From contig JAGTXO010000013.1 in NCBI GenBank assembly GCA_019448385.1, positions 806,001-870,000 of the forward strand: a stretch of 64,000 nucleotides of DNA. Direction: 5' to 3'. The stretch comes from Diacronema lutheri (Eukaryota > Haptophyta > Pavlovophyceae > Pavlovales > Pavlovaceae). The notes beneath the pieces are model-generated. The model made no database searches. It worked only from the letters and a program-made list of their open reading frames with translations, and was not told the DNA's origin. The position numbers and the translations under genes were made by a program. Of this stretch, positions 4,434-49,034 are shown piece by piece. Position 1 is the stretch's first letter. Every line of letters begins with the position of its first letter.

Positions 4434-7400
4434 ATGGCGCTCCCGGCGTGGGCGCGCAAGTGGCAGGCGGAGCTGCACGCGCTGGGCAACATCCCGGTGG
4501 TTCTCATCATCTACCTGCCACGCCTTTTCATCACTTCGCTCGTCGTCGCCGTCGCGCAGTTCTGCCGGCTCGGCGCGTGGATGCTCGATGAGACGTCCGA
4601 CATTGTGCGCCAGCCCAAGATCAACAAGCGGATCCTGATCGTGACCGATTACTTGCCGCCGCAGACGCACGGCATCGCGATCCGCTTTCAGCAGTACATC
4701 ACGCACATGCGCAAACTCGGCCACGAGGTCCACGTCTTCGCGACAACGCAGCGGCGCGAGCTCGAGACGTCGTTCGACCACCCGCGCCTCCCGTCCGTCA
4801 TCAACCCGTGGAACGTGAAGAACCGGATGGCGTACAACCCGGGCGTGCGGCTCGCGTGGACACTCGGCGCGCGCCAGTGGGACGTCGTGCACGTCGTCTA
4901 CCCCTCGCTCATCGGCGCGTTTGTGATTGCGGTCTGCGCGTGGCGGCGAATCCCAGTCTACTGCTCGCACCACGTCGACATCGACTTTTACGCGACCCGG
5001 TGCGGTGCACGCTGCGCGCGCCTGCAGCGCACGCGGCGATAACGCGATACTCCGGCGCGCCGCCAATCCTGCAGTTCGGCCGGGCGAGCCGGCCGAGCGC
5101 GCCGCGCGGAGAGCTCGGCGGCCCGTGCGACGCCGGCGCGAGCGATAGCGGCGAGGCGCGTCGCGTGCATGCGAGAGCTCACGCTCGGACGCGCGCTCGC
5201 GCGTTCCCGCGCGCGCCAGGTACACGCGCTTTAAGGTGCTGCGCAGATTCGGCCTGCTGCTTTACGACCTGATCGCGCGTTGGCCGTGCGCATTTGCAAC
5301 GGTCAATGCGGCGCCCACCCTGCACTTCCTGCACGCGCACATGCGCACGGCGCCGGGGAAGGTGGAGCGGATCCCGACGGGTGTCGCGCTCGCCGCCTTC
5401 AGCCCCACCGGCCCAACGCACCGCACAGCCGACCGGCGCGCGCTGCTCGAGCGCATCGGTGTGCCGGACGCAGCCGCCAAAGCCGCAGACCCTTCCTCGC
5501 CAGCGATTTGGCTCCTCGTCCAAAGGCTCGCGCCAGAGAAGGACACGGGCCTCGTCTACGGCGCGCTGCAGCTCGCGCTCGAACGCGTCGGCGCGCTCCC
5601 ACCCGCGCCCGCCGACCCGCCTGCCGGCGCGCGTCGCGGGCGCGCGAGCGGCGCGGCCGGGCGCGGGGCGAGCGGCGCTGCCGGCGCGGGCATGGCGACA
5701 GGCAGCATGCCAATCCAAGTGGTGATCGCTGGCGACGGCCCTTCGATGGGCGCGCTGCAAGCGGAGGCGAAGGAGCGCAACTTGCCCGTCACCTTCCTCG
5801 GCTCAGTCGAGCACGAGCACCTTCCCGCCCTTTACCGCGCAGCCTCCGCTTTTGTAACGTGCTCAACTTCTGAAACGTACGGTCTCACTGTCGTCGAGGC
5901 GCTCGCGAGCGGCACGCCCGTTGTCATGCCGCACTGCGAGGTGCGCGGCGCGCGTGATCTCGCGCGCGCACGCCGCGTGGCGCGCAGCGAGAAGGGGTGG
6001 GCAGGGGCAGGGGGGGCAGGGGGGGAAGGTGGGCGGTAGGAAGGTGGGGAGCGCAGCGAGAAGGGGTGGGCAGGGGCAGGGGGGGCAGGGGGGGAAAGTG
6101 GGCGGTAGGAAGGTGGAAAGCGCGGCGAGAAGGGGCGGGCAGGGGCAGGGGGGGGCAGGGGGGAAAGTGGGCGGTAGGAAGGTGGGGAGCGCAGCGAGAA
6201 GGGGTGGGCAGGGGCAGGGGGGGCAGGGGGGGAAAGTGGGCGGTAGGAAGGTGGAAAGCGCGGCGAGAAGGGGCGGGCAGGGGCAGGGGGGGGGCAGGGG
6301 GGAAAGTGGGCGGTAGGAAGGTGGGGAGCGCAGCGAGAAGGGGTGGGCAGGGGCAGGGGGGGAAAGTGGGCGGTAGGAAGGTGGAAAGCGCGGCGAGAAG
6401 GGGCGGGCAGGGGCAGGGGGGGGCAGGGGGGAAAGTGGGCGGTAGGAAGGTGGGGAGCGCAGCGAGAAGGGGTGGGCAGGGGCAGGGGGGGCAGGGGGGG
6501 AAAGTGGGCGGTAGGAAGGTGGAAAGCGCGGCGAGAAGGGGCGGGCAGGGGCAGGGGGGGGCAGGGGGGAAAGTGGGCGGTAGGAAGGTGGGGAGCGCAG
6601 CGAGAAGGGGTGGGCAGGGGCAGGGGGGGAAAGTGGGCGGTAGGAAGGTGGAAAGCGCAGCGAGAAGGGGTGGGCAGGGGCAGGGGGGGCAGGGGGGGAA
6701 AGTGGGCGGTAGGAAGGTGGAAAGCGCGGCGAGAAGGGGTGGGCAGGGGCAGGGGGGGCAGGGGGGGAAAGTGGGCGGTAGGAAGGTGGGGAGCGCAGCG
6801 AGAAGGGGTGGGCAGGGGCAGGGGGGGAAAGTGGGCGGTAGGAAGGTGGGGAGCGCAGCGAGAAGGGGTGGGCAGGGGCAGGGGGGGCAGGGGGGGAAAG
6901 TGGGCGGTAGGAAGGTGGAAAGCGCGGCGAGAAGGGGTGGGCAGGGGCAGGGGGGGAAAGTGGGCGGTAGGAAGGTGGAAAGCGCAGCGAGAAGGGGTGG
7001 GCAGGGGCAGGGGGGGCAGGGGGGGAAAGTGGGCGGTAGGAAGGTGGGGAGCGCGGCGAGAAGGGGTGGGCAGGGGCAGGGGGGGGGGCAGGGGGGGAAA
7101 GTGGGCGGTAGGAAGGTGGGGAGCGCGGCGAGAAGGGGTGGGCAGGGGCAGGGGGGGGGCAGGGGGGGAAAGTGGGCGGTAGGAAGGTGGGGAGCGCGGC
7201 GAGAAGCGCCACGCCGCGCGCTGATCGTCGTCGCCGCGTTGCGACCGCGCGCGCGACACGTCGTGTCCCGGCGCGCCAACCACGCAGGTGTTTGACGAGC
7301 TGTGGAAATCGCAGCTGCCTTCTGAGTGGATGTACGACCCACACCCCGCTGCCGGCGCGCCGTCGTCTGCCGCCGCGTCCGCCGCCGCGTCGCACAAGCT

Positions 7401-7812
7401 GCTCGAGTCGCTCACCGTCGCGTCGGGCGCTGCGGCTGCGGCATGGCTCGCGCACAACCCGGTGGACATGTCGTGGGAGGGTGCAACTGACGAGCTGCTC
7501 CGCCACTACGATCGCGCTATTGAGGCCAACATGCCATACAGGCGCGAGAAATCGTCAAACAAGGCGAGCGAGCGCGCACACGCCCAACGCCACCTTTCCG
7601 CCCGCGCAGCCCTCGCTCGCCTCGCCACGAGGGTGCTCACGCGCCGCGCTCGCGCGCCGCGCCGCGCCGACCTGCGACAGCTCGCGGTGCTGCACAGCCT
7701 GCTCGCGCTTCTGTGGTCAGTTGGCCTCTGGTGGCTGATGCGCGCCTACTCGCGCTACTTGATCGTGCTCTTCGCGCGACTGATGCTCCTCGATATCCAC
7801 ATACGCAACTGA
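4434..7812 (+). CDS. SQD2: GT4 glycosyltransferase, SQD2-like (sulfoquinovosyl transferase)
   Basis: Join 4434-4999, 5220-5940 and 7288-7812, 603 aa. SQD2 moves sulfoquinovose from UDP onto diacylglycerol to make the thylakoid lipid SQDG. Seen here: an N-terminal hydrophobic segment, the GT4 start KRILIVTDYLPPQTHGIAIR, the acceptor-side SHHVDIDFYA (SQD2 has SYHTHVPVY), IPTGVALAAFSP, the donor-site block VQRLAPEKDTG, VVIAGDGP, and the E-x7-E motif region SETYGLTVVEALASGTPVV. A further hydrophobic segment ends the protein. Intron phases (2, 0) restore ATR-YTRFKV and HCE-VFDELW. A long Ala/Gly insert precedes the donor site. A different GT4 family is possible, since the AxAGG stretch after GTPVV is absent. 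Confidence 0.65.
5985..7206 (+). repeat. G-rich intronic minisatellite, about 18 units of 60-72 bp
   Basis: Intron 2 of the SQD2-like gene (5941-7287) is nearly filled by a tandem array. Each unit carries GCGAGAAGGGGTGGGCAGGG, one or two blocks of GGGGCAGGGGGG, then AAAGTGGGCGGTAGGAAGGTGG. Units alternate between a long form with two CAGG blocks and a short form with one, and between two spacer endings (GTGGGGAGC and GTGGAAAGC). Guanine runs of 6-9 sit on the sense strand, so G-quadruplexes are likely in the DNA or transcript. Long open frames across it on both strands are repeat artefacts. Confidence 0.9.
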
Positions 7813-8164
7813 CTCCTCGCGCTACCCGTCTTCACCTTAAACCGTCCTCACCTCCCTCGCGACGCGCGCGAAGGCGGCACGGAGCATGCTGCATGTTTGC
7901 GCGCCATGCAACTTGAACTTGAACTTCCCTCGCTGGAGCATGCTGCATGCTTGAGCGCCAGAGCGCACTGCGGTGTGGCTTTGCCAGCGCGCAGGCTGAG
8001 CGTTGACTTCAATCTTGGGGGTCCTCACTCCTCAGGGGAGGGCGGACCCCGGACCTGTGGGCTGTGAGACGCCCAGCGGGTGTCACCTTGATTACGGTAA
8101 TTGACAACCACTGGGCAGTGGGCAGTACGGCCGCCGGTCCCGTCTCCGTCTCCTCCGCGCCCAA
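7813..8164. other. Intergenic region with a duplicated 26-bp motif
   Basis: No gene is seen. Two copies of a 26-bp motif starting GGAGCATGCTGCATG lie at 7881-7906 and 7935-7960 (two mismatches), 54 bp apart, each holding a GCATGC core. Between them is ACTTGAACTTGAACTT. This is the 5' flank of the membrane-protein gene and the 3' flank of the SQD2-like gene. The repeats may be transcription-factor sites or a local duplication. Confidence 0.5.
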
Positions 8165-13702: not shown

Positions 13703-15036
13703 CAAGGGGATACAAAGTAGTATTTATACTAACGACGCTTTCCGACGGGTCAACAGATGGGGTCAGGAAGTGCGCAGCGAGGCGCCAGGCGGAGCAGGCC
13801 CAAAGGCCCACACGCGCCTAGCCACCGCGCGCCGCCGCCCGCGCGCCGCCGCACCGGTGGCCGCCGTCAATCACACCACCGGCCGACGCGCACGCGCACG
13901 CCGAGGCCCGAAGATCGTCGGCGACGACCGCCACCCCCGAGCCGCCGCCTGCCACGTCGCCAAGCCGCCCGCCGCCGCTGCAGAGCGCGACGCCCGCCGC
14001 CAGCGAGCCGCCGCCCTCCCCGCCGCGTCGCAGCCCCCTGCCGCCGCCGCGAAGCGCACCGCCACCCGCCGCCAGCGTGGCAAGCGCCGCGATGCTGGCC
14101 GCGTGGCCGCGCACGCGCGCCCCGCCACCCCCAAACCCACCGACCGGGGCGAAAAGTACGTTGTTCGCGGTGCCGGCGCAGTCGATGGGCAGGGGCGGCG
14201 GGGCGCGCGGAGCGCGGCCAGCAGAGCGCGAGGGCGCAGCCGTCGCAAGCGAAGATTTCGTCGTAGAGAAGGCCACGCCGCCGTCGCTCGTGCGGCCGTG
14301 CGCGCGCGCCCCGCCATCTCCAAACCCACCGACCGGGGCGAAAAGTACGTTGTTCGCGGTGCCGGCGCAGACGATGGGCAGGGGCGGCGGGGCGCGCGGA
14401 ACGCGGCCATCAGAGCGCGAGGGCGCAGCCGTCGCAAGCGAAGGTTTCGTCGTAGAGAAGGCCACGCCGCCGTCGCTCGTGCGGCCGTGCGCGCGCGCCC
14501 CGCCACCCCCAAACCCACCGACCGGGGCGAAAAGTACGTTGTTCGCGGTGCCGGCGCAGTCGATGGGCAGGGGCGGCGGGGCGCGCGGAGCGCGGCCAGC
14601 AGAGCGCGAGGGCGCAGCCGTCGCAAGCGAAGGTTTCGTCGTAGAGAAGGCCACGCCGCCGTCGCTCGTGCGGCCGTGCGCGCGCGCCCCGCCACCCCCA
14701 AACCCACCGACCGGGGCGAAAAGTACGTTGTTCGCGGTGCCGGCGCAGTCGATGGGCAGGGGCGGCGGGGCGCGCGGAGCGCGGCCAGCAGAGCGCGAGG
14801 GCGCAGCCTGGATGGCAAAGGCAGGCGTCGTCAAGGCAGCCGGCGTTTCGAAGCTGCCGGCCGGCACGGCCGCGCCGGCGCGCGCCGCGCCGACGGGGAC
14901 CACGGTGCCTCGCAGCTGTTCAAAAGCCTTTGGATTTATACTAACGACGCTTCCGACGGGTCAGGAAGTGCGGGGTCAGGAAGTGCGCAGCGAGGCGCCA
15001 GGCGAAGCAGGCCCGAAGTATTTTAGATCCCCTTGG
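13703..15036. mobile_element. Candidate non-autonomous DNA element with terminal repeats
   Basis: The left end reads CCAAGGGGATACAAAGTA; the right end carries the inverted ATCCCCTTGG (10 bp perfect, about 15 of 18 imperfect). Just inside each end is a direct repeat of about 80 bp (13722-13801 and 14934-15013) holding ATTTATACTAACGACGCT, TCCGACGGGTCA and GGTCAGGAAGTGCGCAGCGA. A 189-bp tandem repeat fills the centre. No transposase is seen. No clean target-site duplication is visible, although GGGT flanks both ends in some form. The ends are AT-richer than any nearby sequence. An alternative is a local duplication around a repeat-rich gene. Confidence 0.45.
14113..14808. repeat. 189-bp tandem repeat, about 3.6 copies
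   Basis: Units start with AAACCCACCGACCGGGGCGA at 14133, 14322, 14511 and 14700, exactly 189 bp apart, and are about 97% identical. Since 189 is 63 codons, long frames stay open on both strands: plus strand 14077-15123 with PTGAKSTLFAVPAQ repeats, and minus strand 13818-14903 with NNVLFAPVGGFGGGG repeats. Either might encode a repeat protein, but neither resembles a known family. The exact multiple of three hints at coding selection or at chance. Confidence 0.8.
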
Positions 15037-35041: not shown

Positions 35042-36208
35042 TCAGACGCCCATCGCGCGTGGCGTCTCGTCGTGGTCGGCTGCGGCGCTCGGCACGGCGC
35101 GCGGCGCGCCGTTGTCGTTGCCCGAGACGGGCACCTCGTCAAAGTCCTTTGCGCGCCGCGAGAGCAGGTAGATGCCCGTCCAGACGAGCCAGATGGGCAT
35201 GAAGAAGAAGGAGACGAGGATTGCAATCGCGATGTCCAAAGCGGCTGCGGCCATGAACCAGCGCAGGCGGCCGACTTCGGCGAGGAAGCCGATGAAGGCG
35301 AGGAGCGCGATGACCACCGTCAGGAATGTCCACGAGCTGTACAGCATCTTCGTTCGACCGTTTAGGTAGCTGCGTGAGGGGGAGGGGAGGGGTGGGGGGT
35401 GGGGGGTGGGGGGGGGGGGGCGGGCATGCGTTGGCACAACGCGCAGGCGGCGCAGGATGGCAGGCGGCGCAGGATGGCAGGCGGCGCAGGATGGCAGGCG
35501 GCGCAGGATGGCAGGCGGCGCAGGATGGCAGGCGGCGCAGGATGGCAGGCGGCGCAGGATGGCAGGCGGCGCAGGATGGCAGGCGGCGCAGGATGGCAGG
35601 CGGCGCAGGATGGCAGGCGGCGCAGGATGGCAGGCGGCGCAGGATGGCAGGCGGCGCAGGATGGCAGGCGGCGCAGGATGGCAGGCGGCGCAGGATGGCA
35701 GGCGGCGCAGGATGGCAGGCGGCGCAGGATGGCAGGCGGCGCAGGATGGCAGGCGGCGCAGGATGGCAGGCGGCGCAGGATGGCAGGCGGCGCAGGAGCA
35801 GGCGGCGCAGGATGGCAGGCGGCGCAGGATGGCAGGCGGCGCAGGATGGCAGGCGGCGCAGGATGGCAGGCGGCGCAGGATGGCAGGCGGCGCAGGATGG
35901 GAGGCGGCGCAGGATGGCAGGCGGCGCAGGATGGCAGGCGGCGCAGGATGGCAGGCGGCGCAGGATGCCAGGCGGTGTGGCGGCGGTGCGTCGCGCCACG
36001 CGAGCAGCGGCCATGGCCGCCGACAGCGCACGGCGAGAGCCGCCCGACGATGGCGTGCGTGCGTGCGTGCGGGCGCGCATACGCGGCAGTTGCCATGCCG
36101 ATCATGGTGAACCACCAGACCATGCCAAGCATCCAAAATTCGCGCGAGTTTGTGAGCGCGTGCGAGATCTCGAGGTTCTTGAGCTGCTCGGGCAAAGCCG
36201 CAGGGGGG

Positions 36209-43027: not shown

Positions 43028-44687
43028 ATGGCCGGCGCGGCGAGTAGCCCCACTCGCACGTCGAGAAGAGCAGCGTCATCCGGCCACCTCCTCCTGCTCG
43101 CGCTCTGCTCGTTTGCGCCGCGCGCGCAGAGCTCTCCGATGCTCACCGGCCGCAGCTGGTGGGCCTCGCTCGGCTCGCCGCGCTGCGTGGCCGCGCCAAT
43201 GGTCGCACAGTCGGAGCTCGCGTTCCGCCTCCTCGCGCGCCGCTACGGCGCCGAGCTGTGCTACACGCCCATGCTACTCGCCAAGCTGTACGCGGCGGTG
43301 CCCGAGTACCGCGCAGACCACTTCTCCACCTGCGCCGCCGACCGCCCGCTCGTCGCTCAGCTCGCCGGCCACGACCCCGACACGATGGTGCGCGCGGCGC
43401 TCCTCCTTCAGCCTCACGTCGACGCGATCGACATCAACCTCGGCTGCCCGCAGGGCATCGCACGCAAGGGCAAGTACGGCGCGTACCTGCTGCCCGACGT
43501 CGAGCGCGTCTGCCAGATCGTGCGCGCGCTCTGCGCCGCGATTGACCTGCCCATCACGTGCAAGGTACGCGCCGGCGCGCGCGCGCGCGCGCCCGTGCAC
43601 GCCCAGGCCGCGCGCGGCCGGCGCGCGCGTGCGAGCGGCATCGCGCGGGCATGGCCTCCCGCCGAGGCCGCGGCCGTGCCTCCCTTCTCGATCGGCGTGC
43701 GCAGGTGCGGCTGCTCCCATCGCTTGGTGCGACGGTTGACGCGTGCCGTCGGTTTGAGGATGCGGGCGTATCTGCGCTCACTGTGCACGGGCGCACGCGC
43801 GAGCAGAACAAGCAGTTTGTGGGCAGCGCGGACTGGACGGCGATCGCGACGGTCACGCGTGCGCTTACCGTGCCGGTGATCGCCAACGGCGGCATCGCCA
43901 CAGCGGCGGATGTCGACGCGTGCCTGCGCGAGACGGGAGCTGCCGCGGTGATGTCATCTGAGGCGCTGCTGGGCAACCCCGCGCTTTTCGCAGCGAATCG
44001 CGACCCGGCGACGGGCGCGCACGTGACGCAGCGGCGGCTGGCGCGCGAGTACCTGCAGCTCGCGCGCGAGGTGGGCGCGCCGGACGCGAGCGCGCGTGCG
44101 CACGTCTTCAAGCTGCTGCACGGTGCGCTCTGCGCAAGGCCACAGCTGCGTGATCGACTGGCCGAAGCGTGCGCGCGCGCCGCGCCGAGCATTGCCGCGC
44201 CGCGCCGCGCCGCTGGCGCAGGGCGCCGTCGCCGCCGTGGCATGCGCCGCGGGAATCAGGCCGTGGGCCCGTCACGCCCCGTGACGCCCGTCACGACCTT
44301 CTGTGCCCGCCCCGCCCGGTCGGCCGCGCGCGCCTCCGCTTCGCCCGCAGCTACGGCCTCGACCAGTTCGAAGGCATCTTGGACGCCCTTGACGAGCTCG
44401 ATCCGACGCTGCTCCTCGAGCCGATGGCGCACACGGCGGAGGGCGAGCGCGCCGAGCGGCGCGTGCTGCAGTGGTATCTGCGGCACCAGTGTAGGGACGA
44501 GGCGCGCGCGCTCCTCGCGGACGGGCGACCGCCGGCCGGGGGTGAAGGGGAGCGGACGGCACGGCGCGTGCGTAGGGCGCAGCACAAGGCGGTGCTGCGA
44601 GAACGGCACGCGGCGCGCGTCGTCAAGCTCGCCAACGCGGCGGCGAGCGACGGCCAGTCTCGTGTGCGAGACGGGGCTGCGGCGTAG
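43028..44687 (+). CDS. DUS1L: tRNA-dihydrouridine synthase (Dus1 type)
   Basis: Join 43028-43564, 43705-44168 and 44351-44687, 445 aa. Dus1 reduces uridine 16/17 in the tRNA D-loop using FMN and NAD(P)H. Seen: the FMN barrel start CVAAPMVAQSELAFRLLARR, GAELCYTPMLLA, the active-site block DINLGCPQGIARKGKYGAYL with its cysteine, PITCKVRLLPS across junction 1, LTVHGRTREQN, PVIANGGIATAADVDAC and AVMSSEALLGNP. Phases are 0 and 2; junction 2 gives RDRLAEA-YGLDQFEG, matching the family's C-terminal helices. The tail is basic. An N-terminal hydrophobic stretch (SSGHLLLLALCSFAPRAQSS) may be a targeting signal; ATG 43140 is an alternative, cytosolic start. Confidence 0.86.
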
Positions 44688-44776
44688 GATCAACCTGTCG
44701 CTGCCTTCCATGTTGCTGCCATTTTCCATTTTTGCCACCAGTCCTTCAATTTTCGGGCGGTCATCGTCGGCCGGAG

Positions 44777-46514
44777 ATGACGCCACCGTCGCGCAGCTCG
44801 CCAGCCTTGGCCGCCAAGCGAGCGCGCCTCGCGGTCGCCGAGCTCAGCGCGCAGACGGATGACACGCGCATTCGCGCGATCACGCCCATGATCCCTCCGG
44901 CGTGCCTGATGGAGGAAGTCCCGTCGTCGGCCGAGCTGCAGGCGTCGGTCGCGGAGAGCCGCGCGGCGATCCGCGCGGTGCTCAACGGCGAGGATGACCG
45001 CGTGCTCGTCGTCGCTGGCCCGTGCACCGTGCACGACCCCGCGGCGACGCTCGAGTACGCCGCCAAGCTCGCGGACGTTGCGCGCAGGCACGCGCGCGAC
45101 GTGCTCGTCGTGATCAGGCTCAATTTCCGCAAGCCGAGCCACTCGTCCGAGTGGAAGGGCTTTCTGCATGACCCGCACCGCGACGGGTCGTTTGCGATCA
45201 ACCGCGGCCTGCAGCTCGCGCGCCAGCTGATGGTGGGAGGCGCGAGCACCGCCCCGCAAGGCCAAGCGCGCTCGCGCCGCCCGGCTCGACGCGCATCTTG
45301 ACTGTGCGCTCGGGAGTGCGCGCGTTTGCGGCGCGCAGGTGCGCGTCGCGTCGCTCGGCCTGGCGATTGGCACGTCGTTTCACGACACGCTGCAGCCGCA
45401 GTTCTTTGCCGACCTCGTCGCGTGGCTCTGGGTGTCGCCCCACGCGAGTGCCTCGCAGGTGCGCGCGACGGACGGGCGGCCCGCGTGCAACGGGTGTGCG
45501 TGCGTGCGTGCTGCGTCGTCTCCCGTCCCCTCCGTGTGCGTACGTGCGGTGCTGCGTGCCATTGCTGTCGTGCTCCTCTCCTACCCTCTCGCACACCACC
45601 CCCCTTCCCCCTTTCCCCCCTTCCTCTCTTCCCCCCTTCCCCCTTTCCCTTTCTTTCCCTTTCTTTCCCTTTCCCATCCACATACGCACAACAGGTGCAC
45701 CACGAACTTTCCTCCGGCCTCTCCATGCCCGTTGCCTACTGCGACCGCGGCGGCACGGGCGCAGACTTTGCGACGGCCGCGGCCGAGGAGGCGGCCGTGC
45801 TGCGCGCGCAGCGCACGTCACGGATGCGGCACGCCTTCTTGTCCGGTGTGCGCCAGTGCGAGGCGCAGGTGCGCTGCGTTGCGACAAATAGCATCCCATC
45901 CCATCCCATCCCATCCCATCCCATCCCATCCCATCCCATCCCATCCCATCCCGCCATGCAGTCTCTAAACAAGGCGTGGCGGGCATCGTGCACACGCACG
46001 GCAACAGCGACGTGCACACCGTGATCGGCGGCGCGGGCGGCGCGGCCGCGCTGCTGCAGCGTGCGCACGCCGCCGCCAACGAGCTCGGCCAGCTCAACTT
46101 GGGCATGCGCCTGCTCGTCGACTGCTCGGGTGGCGAGGGGATAGGGGCGCAGAGCGCAGCGTGCCGCGCGGTCGCGAGTGCGATTGGCGGAGGCGACGAA
46201 ACGCTATGCGGCGTTTGCCTCAAGTCCTTCCTTCTCTCCGGTCGGCAGGCGGCGTCCTTCGGCGGTGGCGCGCGCGCGAGCACTGGTGGTGCCATGAGCA
46301 ACGATGGCGGCGGTGTTCACGATGGCGGCGGTGTTCACGATGGCGGCGGTGGCGCTGGCGCGCAGTCTGCGAGTGGCGGTGCCCTTGCAGCGGAGGAGGA
46401 GGAGGAGGAGGGGGGCGTGCAGCACGAGCTGCCGCCTCCCCCGCCAGTGTATGGTCTCTCCATCACTGAGCCGTGCATTGATTGGTCGCAGGTGCGCCTA
46501 CCCTTCCGCCCCCC

Positions 46515-46545
<31 letters not shown>

Positions 46546-46597
46546 GCAAACACGCTCGAACGCTGAGCCGAGCCAACACACGCCACCAGCCCCCCCA

Positions 46598-46631
<34 letters not shown>

Positions 46632-49034
46632 CCCCCATCTTCCCCTGCCAGACAGTCGAGCTCCTTCAAGCCCTCGCAGACGCCTCGCGCCACCGCCGCT
46701 CGAACTTGCGCTCGCACGGCGGAGGGCCGCGCGGCGCGCGAGCTGCGGCCGCTGCGAGCGGAGGCGGCAGTGCGCAGCATGGCGGTGGGCAGCATGGCGA
46801 TGGGCAGCATGGCGGTGGGCAGCATGGCGGTGGGCAGCATGGCGGTGGGCAGCATGGCGGTGGGCAGCATGGCGGTGGGCAGCATGGCGGTGGGCAGCAT
46901 GGCGGACGGTGCGCGCGCCCACGCTCGCCACTTTGCGTCCCACGCCCCTTTTCGCCTGCGCGACACGCACAAACCGCGCGCATCTTGAGGGGTTCGCTCG
47001 TGGCTCGCTGTCAGATGCGCGCCGATGCCTTCCATTGCTCGCCTCCACCGCCAAGCTCCTGCCCCCCTCCCTCCCCCTCCCTTCCTTTCCCCATCCCCCC
47101 GCCAGCTTCACCGAGTCCGCGTCCGCGACGGACAACTTGCGCATCCGCGCGATCCAGCCGCTCCTCCCGCCCGCATGCCTCCTCAACGAGCTGCCGTGCC
47201 CGCCCGACGCGGCAGCCACCATCGCCGTGGCGCGCGAGCAGATCGGTGCCCTCCTCGCCGCGCCCTCCACGGACAGCGCGGCGCGCTCGGGCCGCGCCTG
47301 CCGCGCGGGTGCGGGCGCGGGCGCGGGCGCGGGCGCAGGCGCGGGCGCGGGCGCAGGCGCGGGCGCGGGCGCGGGCGTGGGCGTGGGCGCAGGCGCGGGC
47401 GCGGGCGTGCAAGGCAGCGCGGCGCGGCTGCTCGTCGTCGTGGGCCCGCCCGTTGTGCACGAGATGAGCGCGGCGCTCGAGTTTGGCGGGCGGCTGCGCG
47501 CGCTCGCCGCCGCACATTCGGACGCGCTCCTCATCGTGATGGCCGCGTCCTTTGAGAGACCGGGCGCGGGTGCGGGCTGGAAGGGCTTGATTCACGACCC
47601 GTGTCACGATGGTAGGGGGCATCGCGCGCGTGTGCGCCCCCCGACGGGCCTGCTTCGCCCCGGCGCGCTGCATCGTCGACCTGGTGCCGCACGGCACCTT
47701 GGTGGGCACGCGCTGCCCCTCACCCCCCCCCCCCCCCCCCTTCCCCCTTCCCCGCCCCTTTTCAAACTCCCTTTCCCCTCCGCCCTCCCCACCACGCACG
47801 CGCTGTCCATCCCGCGCGTGCGTGCGCACTTGCAGGCAGCTTCCAGATCAACAGCGGGCTGCGCCTTGCGCGCAAACTGCTCCTTTCCCTCGCCTCGCTC
47901 GGTGTGCCCACGTGCACAGAATTTGTCGATACGATCATGCCACAGGTGTGTGTGTGTGTTGGGGGGGGGGGGGGGGGGACACGCGAGCCATGCCAAGCGG
48001 CGGGGTCTGCGCGGCCCCGCCGCTTGGGCGCGCGCGCGGCCGTTTTGCTCAGCCTCGGCTCAGCCGCTGCCACCTGTCGCTGTCACCTTGTGCCTGTCAC
48101 CGTCATCGTCACCTGTCACCGTCTTCCCCCTTCCTGTCACTGTCACCGTCACCTCCCCTCCCTGTCACTCGCAGTACCTCGCGGACTTGACCTCGTACTC
48201 AGCGTCAGACTGCGCGGCGTCGTCATCCTACCTCATGACCGAGCTCGCGTCGGGCCTCTCCATGCCCGTCGGCATCAGAGTCTGCGCACAGCCGGCGCAC
48301 GCGCCCGCCGCGCCCGCCGCGCCCGCCGCCTCTGAGCCGATCGACGGCGTGGCCGCGTCCGAGAGCGACGTGACCGCGCAATGGACCGCACAGCGGCTCG
48401 TGCACGCGCTGCGCTCGGCGCGGGAGCCGCACGTCTTCCTCTCCGTCTCAAAGCACAACCTCGCCGGTGCGGTCGCGCGGCTCGCCTGCGCGCGCGACGC
48501 CGCCCCAACCCGCGCGCGCCGCGCGCGCCGCCCCCATCTCCGTGCGCACGCGCGCGCGTGCCGACGGCGTGGTGCCCACCCCGCGCCTCGCGCGCGCACG
48601 CGCGTCGGCCGTCAGGCATTGTGCACACGACCGGCAACGAGCACGCGCACGCGATCGTCGTCGCCGACGGCGCGCTCGGCGCGGCACACGGCGCGCTGCG
48701 CGCGCACGGCCTGCCCGCCTCGCCCGTCGTTGACTGCTGCCTGCCGACCGAGCCGCCCGCAGGCGCGGCCAACGGCGGCAACGCGGTCGCGTCGGTGCTC
48801 GACACGCAGCGCGAGCTCGTCTCGCGCGTCACGTCCGAGATCCGGCACGGACGCGCGCCGGTGCTTGGCGTGATGCTGCCCGCCTACCTGTGCGAGGGGC
48901 GGCAAGACGTGCTGCCCGGCCGCAAGCTCGCGTATGGCGTCAGCGTCGGCGGCGACTGTTTCGGCTGGGCCGAAACGGCCGCCATTCTTGAGCGCCTCGC
49001 CGACGCCGTGCGCGCGCGGAACGCCGCGGCGTGA
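44777..49034 (+). CDS. Two-domain fusion of class I DAHP-synthase-like modules, both degenerate
   Basis: Nine exons: 44777-45232, 45339-45458, 45695-45845, 45962-46491, 46652-46908, 47106-47611, 47836-47945, 48175-48466, 48616-49034; 946 aa. All phases agree. AroG-type DAHP synthases condense PEP and erythrose-4-phosphate at the shikimate entry. Module 1 (~28-500) has TDDTRIRAITPMIPPACL, VVAGPCTVHD, EWKGFLHDPHRDGSFAIN, VHHELSSGLSMPVA and YGLSITEPCIDW. Module 2 (~530-946) has NLRIRAIQPLLPPACLL, GWKGLIHDP, SFQINSGLRLARKLLL, GVPTCTEFVDTIMPQYLADL and EGRQDVLPGRKLAYG. Against E. coli AroG, module 1 keeps Cys61, Arg92 and Lys97 but loses Arg165, Lys186, Arg234, His268 (DCSGGE) and Glu302 (GVCLKSF). 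Module 2 loses Cys61 (GPPVVHE), Arg92, His268 (DCCLPTE) and Glu302 (GVMLPAY). The join between modules rests on phase 2/2 (GGR-FTESASATDN); two adjacent genes remain possible. Confidence 0.72.
45892..45952. repeat. (CATCC) pentanucleotide repeat, about 12 copies, in an intron
   Basis: A pure CATCC array fills most of the 116-bp intron 45846-45961 of the DAHP-synthase-like fusion gene, ending 9 bp before the 3' splice site. It supplies a pyrimidine-rich tract there. Confidence 0.95.
46509..46635. repeat. C homopolymers and a (CA) repeat in an intron
   Basis: Intron 46492-46651 of the fusion gene is made of two C runs (about 46509-46530 and 46599-46627) separated by a short (CA)n tract and unique sequence. 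The C runs are on the sense strand, upstream of the acceptor CCAG. Confidence 0.85.
46775..46905. repeat. 15-bp coding repeat in the linker between the two modules
   Basis: About eight copies of GGTGGGCAGCATGGC encode a GGQHG-type repeat directly after the last helix of module 1. The period is five codons and the array ends at the GTGCGC donor at 46909. The product is a flexible Gly/Gln/His-rich linker to module 2. Confidence 0.85.
47308..47410. repeat. GGGCGC hexanucleotide repeat coding an Ala-Gly linker
   Basis: About 16 hexamers encode alternating Ala-Gly between an early helix and the first core strand (RLLVVVGPP) of module 2 of the fusion protein. Some units carry GGGCGT or GGCGCA variants. 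Confidence 0.9.

Follow-up and report, generated by a model that had tools for sequence, protein, structure and literature searches.

A two-module relative of type I-alpha DAHP synthase in the haptophyte Diacronema lutheri that has lost catalytic residues, keeps its feedback pocket and may be an aromatic amino-acid receptor

Introduction

Enzymes under allosteric control lend themselves naturally to evolution into sensors, and to our knowledge clear cases in which the catalytic site has been erased and the allosteric site preserved are few. The gene examined here, at positions 44777-49034 (+) of a 64,000-nucleotide stretch of the Diacronema lutheri genome (the window), is related to 3-deoxy-D-arabino-heptulosonate 7-phosphate (DAHP) synthase of type I-alpha, the class of Escherichia coli AroG and AroF and yeast Aro3 and Aro4 (PF00793). 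These enzymes have a feedback pocket for phenylalanine (Phe) or tyrosine (Tyr). In yeast and related enzymes, Ser at the place of Aro3 Ser219 goes with sensitivity to Phe and Gly with sensitivity to Tyr, plate assays agree for the enzymes tested, and the pocket is completed by the N terminus of a second subunit (PMC10349828).

Several described proteins resemble the D. lutheri gene in part. In the fungal repressors QutR/QutX, TanX and GaaX, a shikimate-pathway enzyme has apparently been reused as an inactive ligand-binding regulator, and the QutR-type repressors have been hypothesised to be inactive proteins that still bind inducer; they differ in being kin to the last three domains of AROM and in being tied to catabolic inducers (PMC10512348). 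The dehydroquinase (DHQase) domain of Candida albicans Aro1 is likewise inactivated by active-site substitutions, while the reaction can be provided by a type II enzyme (PMC9074039). There, one dead domain sits in a working multi-enzyme, whereas in D. lutheri all modules of two genes look dead. The TrpC-TrpF fusion of the ochrophyte Leucomyxa plasmidifera is an aromatic-metabolism pseudoenzyme inferred from lost catalytic residues, but it belongs to the tryptophan branch, joins two different enzymes and sits in a host inferred to be auxotrophic (PMC11528492). Open-licence literature, mostly titles and the openings of abstracts, yielded no report of an inactive DAHP synthase in algae or of a DAHP synthase called a pseudoenzyme, and the passages of PMC11439500 and PMC11843938 drawn on here do not mention haptophytes. 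A tropone review and a transcriptome study of Emiliania huxleyi under nitrogen limitation, which both refer to haptophytes and to shikimate, mention DAHP synthase once each.

In this study, we found that the window gene and a paralogue elsewhere in the genome each encode two AroG-like modules in one frame, that all four modules have lost most of the catalytic residues, and that all four keep nearly the whole feedback pocket. This combination suggests that the window gene product may have become a receptor for aromatic amino acids.

Results

The window gene encodes two AroG-like modules in one frame

The genome searched comprises 43.49 Mb in 103 contigs, with the window on contig C30; the published assembly of D. 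lutheri NIVA-4/92 has 103 contigs, 43,502,671 bp, 73.25% GC and 80.8% complete BUSCOs (PMC8379373). We rebuilt the gene from anchors, with splice sites picked by homology, and obtained nine exons and eight GT...AG introns whose phases agree, giving one frame of 946 amino acids followed by a stop codon.

Exon 1, 44777..45232 (+): start, N-terminal arm (DDTRIR) and first third of module 1; C61, R92 and K97 equivalents retained.
Exon 2, 45339..45458 (+): module 1 feedback-pocket block D146/P150/Q151 retained; R165 changed to H.
Exon 3, 45695..45845 (+): module 1 pocket block L175/L179/S180/F209/S211 retained; K186 changed to C.
Exon 4, 45962..46491 (+): K214 and V221 retained; R234G, H268G, E302K and D326E all here; Gly/Asp/Glu-rich insert.
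Exon 5, 46652..46908 (+): last helix of module 1; repeat-coded Gly/Gln/His linker, 15-bp unit x 9.3 at 46766-46905.
Exon 6, 47106..47611 (+): start of module 2 (TDNLRIR arm); Gly-Ala insert (6-bp unit, 47303-47407); C61P, R92A and K97R.
Exon 7, 47836..47945 (+): module 2 pocket block D146/P150/Q151 retained.
Exon 8, 48175..48466 (+): module 2 pocket block L175/L179/S180/F209/S211/K214 retained; R165A and K186R.
Exon 9, 48616..49034 (+): V221 retained (codon at 48621); R234V, loss of H268, E302P and D326G all here; stop codon.

This independent rebuild bears out an earlier note on the window, which had described nine exons with agreeing phases and two AroG-type modules joined in one frame by a repeat-coded Gly/Gln/His linker. 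No intron has a length divisible by three. In AroG numbering the introns fall at about 130, 170, 212 and 333 in module 1 and at about 115, 151 and 219 in module 2, the eighth lying in the linker; the seven intramodule introns thus occupy different AroG positions, and no intron is common to both modules. Left unspliced at 46908, the exon 5 frame stays open as far as a stop at 47467, within the coding region of module 2, and the module 2 frame contains no ATG from 46567 up to its conserved start. Taken by itself, module 1 therefore lacks an end and module 2 lacks a start.

Against solved AroG-type DAHP synthases, module 1 matched at E 4.6e-65 and module 2 at E 1.3e-62. Both halves match Pfam DAHP_synth_1 (PF00793), with AroG-like sequence spanning the whole barrel, and this is the sole Pfam family in the protein at E up to 0.001. 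The window protein has no match to PF01474 (type II DAHP synthase), which matches contig C75 only, and Pfam detected no shikimate kinase, DHQase or shikimate dehydrogenase-like domain in it. Domain, N-terminal arm and full-length barrel motifs are those of type I-alpha enzymes; the 21 matched type I-alpha sequences in the PDB are single-module chains of 346-376 residues, whereas the D. lutheri chains hold two modules each.

A second gene of the same layout lies on another contig.

C3 gene, contig C3:139734-142001 (L007:2735-5002) (+): second two-module pseudo-DAHP synthase gene, intronless, 755 amino acids in one frame with a short linker.

The C3 protein matches solved AroG-type enzymes at E 2e-65. 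Its modules are 61% identical to each other, and all other module pairs are 40-44% identical (42-44% for window module 1 and the C3 pair). Because the C3 gene is intronless, the two-module architecture is firm for D. lutheri. A reading of the window locus as two separate genes is rejected on the lack of an in-frame stop or start between the modules together with the C3 layout; the frames and the paralogue support the window gene as a single two-module fusion. The C3 gene begins about 100 bp downstream of a same-strand flavin-reductase-like frame. Each protein also has a single K[KR]x[KR] motif, at opposite ends: amino acids 14-17 of the window protein (exon 1; AAKRARLA) and 749-752 of the C3 protein (SAKKARRTR). 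We take this motif to resemble a simple nuclear-import signal, and its occurrence could be due to chance.

The catalytic site is lost in all four modules

The four modules (C3 first, C3 second, window first, window second) were compared in E. coli AroG numbering with bacterial and viral relatives. At least 590 bacterial stretches matched, at least 588 of them relatives; we used all of the best 80 of the 588, ranked by their match to the C3 second module and so skewed towards its nearest kin. On viral contigs, patterns including AroG picked up 70 stretches, among which 19 were relatives; those built from the C3 protein gave no matches there, and those from three modules gave 15 stretches and no relatives. 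The nine AroG residues followed here are taken to bind metal (Cys61, His268, Glu302, Asp326) or substrate (R92, K97, R165, K186, R234), roles named in the earlier note and familiar from work on AroG. All nine are present in each of the 80 bacterial relatives and, wherever a residue aligns, in the 19 viral ones (L091-L109, AroG-type DAHP synthases on IMG/VR contigs classed as viral, among which L098 contains an internal stop).

Window module 1 retains C61, R92 and K97 and carries R165H, K186C, R234G, H268G, E302K and D326E. Window module 2 has none of the nine left (C61P, R92A, K97R, R165A, K186R, R234V, E302P and D326G); at the place of H268 it has Ala in the gapped alignment and Leu when read without the gap, and no His either way. 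Both C3 modules retain C61 and R92; the first carries K97A, R165G, K186E, R234A, H268T, E302K and D326E, and the second K97A, R165D, K186E, R234A, H268A, E302K and D326E. Six of the nine (R165, K186, R234, H268, E302, D326) are hence lost in all four modules, and one of four metal ligands is left in three modules and none in window module 2.

These losses are concentrated at the active site. Among 79 invariant positions, 17 are lost in all four modules, comprising 6/9 catalytic and 11/70 other positions (p 0.0025). The same tilt is significant in three of the modules taken singly: the C3 first module keeps 2/9 catalytic against 45/70 other invariant positions (p 0.027), the C3 second 2/9 against 44/70 (p 0.030) and the window second 0/9 against 46/70 (p 0.0002).

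The places of H268, E302 and D326 fall within one exon in each window module, and therefore no splice model restores the missing ligands, a possibility that the earlier note had raised against itself. Together with the C3 gene, which reads through in one frame, this rules out splice errors behind the missing ligands. The alignment to AroG agrees with the note on C, G, K and E at the metal-ligand places of module 1, on the alteration of R165, K186 and R234 in both modules and on that of R92 and K97 in module 2; of the P, L, P and G given for module 2, both prolines, the glycine and the loss of His stand, and the leucine depends on the alignment. From these residues, the window protein is very probably a pseudoenzyme devoid of DAHP synthase activity.

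The feedback pocket is retained

We defined the pocket as 11 AroG positions (146, 147, 150, 151, 175, 179, 180, 202, 209, 214 and 221), chosen from E. coli AroG changes that relieve feedback inhibition or from inhibitor contacts named in PMC9529685. Positions 155 and 127, called stabilising there, and the equivalents of 211 and 212 from a Corynebacterium list were kept outside the pocket list, with 211 treated separately (PMC9529685).

At nine of these positions (D146, P150, Q151, L175, L179, S180, F209, K214 and V221) all four modules have the AroG residue. Position 147 is Thr in all four, as in 17/80 bacteria, and at position 202 the window modules have T and S, which are family-like. Outside the pocket list, D155 is retained and position 212 is V in all four modules. 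Counted as cells holding a family-allowed residue, the pocket scores 42/44, the catalytic set 7/36 and all other positions 1003/1266. Of noncatalytic positions conserved at 90% or more in the bacteria, 49/134 are kept in all four modules, and the pocket keeps 8/8 (hypergeometric p 0.0002); the corresponding values are 7/7 versus 43/107 at a 95% threshold (p 0.0012) and 5/5 versus 29/70 at 100% (p 0.0098). When the pocket pattern was slid along the protein, none of the 204 usable shifts at 90% (145 at 95%) kept as many positions or all of them. The earlier note had floated aromatic amino-acid sensing and sugar phosphate binding as functions, beside regulation of the real enzyme, which is a possible role. 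The second loses support because the places of R165, K186 and R234 are changed in all four modules; the first is the best-supported retained function, with binding predicted from the kept pocket.

The residue that sorts Phe-sensitive from Tyr-sensitive enzymes in yeast can be placed in the modules if Aro3 Ser219 is equated with AroG 211, which precedes the pocket Lys (Aro3 K222, taken as AroG K214) by three residues; this mapping is our own. At position 211 the two window modules carry Ser and the two C3 modules Gly; the bacterial set has Ser in 70, Gly in 5 and Ala in 5. On this basis, the preferred ligand is predicted to be Phe for the window protein and Tyr for the C3 paralogue. The N-terminal arm with Arg9 is retained in all four modules, and two modules per chain would supply the pocket-completing pair in cis.

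Selection on the modules is supported over the history of the family

Long spurious frames occur on both strands. Such frames are common in this GC-rich genome, so an open frame alone is weak evidence of maintenance, and the argument for it rests on codon-position conservation and shared derived residues. Across the six module pairs, composition-corrected codon identity was 0.44-0.64 at position 2 and 0.12-0.34 at position 3, a gap of 0.26-0.37; in neutral simulations with two base compositions and three divergences, a gap of 0.26 was reached in 0/600 runs. Three modules share E302K, D326E, G103E and A69T, and all four share A21C, T213S and A219G. None of these residues occurs at those places in the bacterial set, which shows only E302, D326 and G103, and A or G at 69. 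The ratios of nonsynonymous to synonymous change (dN/dS) in neutral runs had means of 1.09-1.24 and 5% points of 0.88-1.04, and five of the six module pairs (up to 0.78 on core columns) lay below every neutral range. The 946 and 755 codons of the two genes contain no stop or frameshift, and the eight splice junctions are intact. Random substitution of the window coding sequence left 9/500 runs free of stops at 0.1 changes per site and 0/500 at 0.2, 0.3 and 0.45. Selection over the family history is supported by these results; with the C3 gene, codon-position conservation and shared derived residues back the view of the earlier note that this two-module pseudo-DAHP synthase is maintained rather than decayed.

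The four modules group together, and a type II enzyme is present in the genome

A first tree held the 80 bacteria, AroG, a Neisseria enzyme and the four modules, with the 19 viral rows and eukaryotic enzymes left out. In it the four modules formed one group against the bacteria with a support of 99 in the Shimodaira-Hasegawa-like approximate likelihood ratio test (SH-aLRT). A second set, thinned at 72% identity to 37 bacteria of which 34 were used, had the nine catalytic columns removed and held no eukaryotic enzymes; SH-aLRT was 99 with all four modules and again 99 when window module 2 was dropped, 98 when window module 1 was dropped and 94 with the window modules alone. The trees carry flags for long branches, chiefly those of the window modules, which meet in the first tree and in the run with the window modules alone, and for the letter make-up of the C3 modules. 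Common ancestry of the four modules is supported within the sampled set and no further.

A search for an intact AroG-type gene, suggested in the earlier note, found none in the genome with three queries (PF00793, with five matches; E. coli AroG; and the C3 second module), although a gene broken up by many short introns could escape such searches and the assembly reaches 80.8% complete BUSCOs. Ten matches were obtained with AroG, one of them weak on C13 (E 0.31) and the others on C3 and C30, and ten with the C3 second module, all on C3 and C30. The strongest PF00793 match in the genome, at C75:1240771-1241508 (L006:2712-3542, -) in a 276-amino-acid open frame, was rejected as an AroG-type gene because it is not AroG-like; by its motifs it looks like 3-deoxy-D-manno-octulosonate 8-phosphate (KDO8P) synthase.

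One type II DAHP synthase locus (PF01474) was found, with two exons at C75:282657-284056 (L010). Aligned to solved bacterial type II enzymes, its translation retains QGGDCAE, IARIAGQYGKPRS, WIGDRTRQ, GVKVGPS, ITRYGS, an HGN motif, HLEVTG and CDPRLN, which we take to carry the catalytic residues. Chorismate synthase and 5-enolpyruvylshikimate-3-phosphate (EPSP) synthase families are also present in the genome. The C75 type II protein is most likely the real DAHP-forming enzyme. In the alignment to the solved type II enzyme 5uxm, about 11 gap places fall in its first exon, around 5uxm 209-235; the protein has no obvious long N-terminal leader, so that it is possibly cytosolic.

Surroundings of the gene

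The upstream neighbour of the window gene, at 43546-44687 (+), contains a Pfam Dus (tRNA dihydrouridine synthase) match in frame 43546-44859. A further open frame, which stops at 44687 and so about 90 bp short of the start codon of the window gene, is guessed to be the last exon of the Dus gene. Elsewhere in the window, a large tandem array (5982-7206, 69-bp unit x 18) lies where GC skew is strong (0.41 in the 6001-8000 bin), and there are near-perfect arrays at 14105-14808 (189-bp unit x 3.7, 97% matches) and 35443-35975 (17-bp unit x 31.5, 98% matches).

Discussion

The D. lutheri modules keep the Phe/Tyr feedback pocket of type I-alpha DAHP synthases; in contrast to those enzymes, they have lost residues for metal and substrate in every one of the four copies. 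We put at about 0.5 the probability that the window gene product is a catalytically dead tandem-barrel type I-alpha DAHP synthase descendant that acts as an aromatic amino-acid receptor. If the protein is made and its two modules pair, as we infer, an aromatic amino acid bound in the retained pocket would alter the shape of the barrel pair, and a partner protein, taking the place of the active site, would read that change, in the manner proposed for the AROM-derived fungal repressors of the QutR kind. A more specific version is doubtful, though possible: the two genes would encode paralogous receptors, one for Phe (window, Ser/Ser) and one for Tyr (C3, Gly/Gly), that report to the type II enzyme or to a transcription regulator.

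Several points weigh against a receptor. Taken alone, window module 1 keeps 3/9 catalytic against 42/70 other invariant positions, and its excess loss is not significant (Fisher p 0.16). The pocket is imperfect in the C3 modules, which have D and L at position 202, residues that are not family-like. Pocket residues also lie within conserved core motifs, where folding could be the reason for their retention, burial being uncontrolled in our comparison. The dN/dS test proposed in the earlier note gave a mixed outcome: by the method of Nei and Gojobori (NG86), values between modules are high, at 0.58-0.91 (0.59-0.91 on core columns), and beside the five pairs under the neutral ranges stands the C3-second/window-second pair, which at 0.91 is not below every one of them. 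Long branches and low-complexity inserts mark the window modules and might reflect a relaxation of constraint, and the selection tests average the whole module history and are silent on present-day selection. Finally, the window protein has no other Pfam domain to suggest the output step of a receptor.

The best placed of the alternatives, which we still regard as unlikely, is that the modules have become a new binder or enzyme. The rebuilt mouth of the barrel (E302K with D326E, G103E and A69T) would take a different, metal-independent ligand, and the pocket would be structural or regulatory. These four changes are common to three of the four modules despite the 42-44% identity of window module 1 to the C3 pair, and new charged residues retained at the old metal site suggest selection there. 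However, window module 2 has P and G at that site and none of the nine catalytic residues, so that the rebuilt mouth is not family-wide, and no co-conserved new catalytic set can be named.

Less probable again is a structural or regulatory subunit, in which the tandem barrels would contact another enzyme, such as the type II DAHP synthase, with no small molecule bound. The one type II locus found in the genome would offer a partner, and the DAHP synthase of Mycobacterium tuberculosis is reported to function in complex with chorismate mutase (PMC4281200). Yet sequence similarity between the two types of DAHP synthase is below 10% (PMC11843938), and a subunit of this kind leaves unexplained why the ligand pocket is the best kept of the sites tested.

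That both genes are relics, freed from selection and decaying, appears improbable. The long branches, the inserts in the window modules, the high dN/dS and the missing catalytic residues would fit decay, but random substitution soon brings stops, of which the two genes have none, their junctions are intact, neutral runs did not produce the observed codon-position gap, and the losses are concentrated at the active site. It is hardly credible that DAHP synthase activity persists through an unusual active site, either metal-free or moved elsewhere: C61, R92 and K97 are left in module 1 and many core motifs are retained, but every module lacks H268, E302 and D326 among the metal ligands and R165, K186 and R234 among the substrate positions, and the genome encodes a type II enzyme that has its catalytic motifs.

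The aromatic amino-acid receptor that we favour would place D. lutheri among the few cases of this kind. Across the two genes, catalytic and allosteric functions appear to have been dissociated in all four modules, and a separate enzyme, of another type, is available to carry out the reaction. If this is true, the two genes would represent a eukaryotic amino-acid sensor family derived from DAHP synthase and would open a route to how haptophytes, which are ecologically major phytoplankton, might sense aromatic amino acids.

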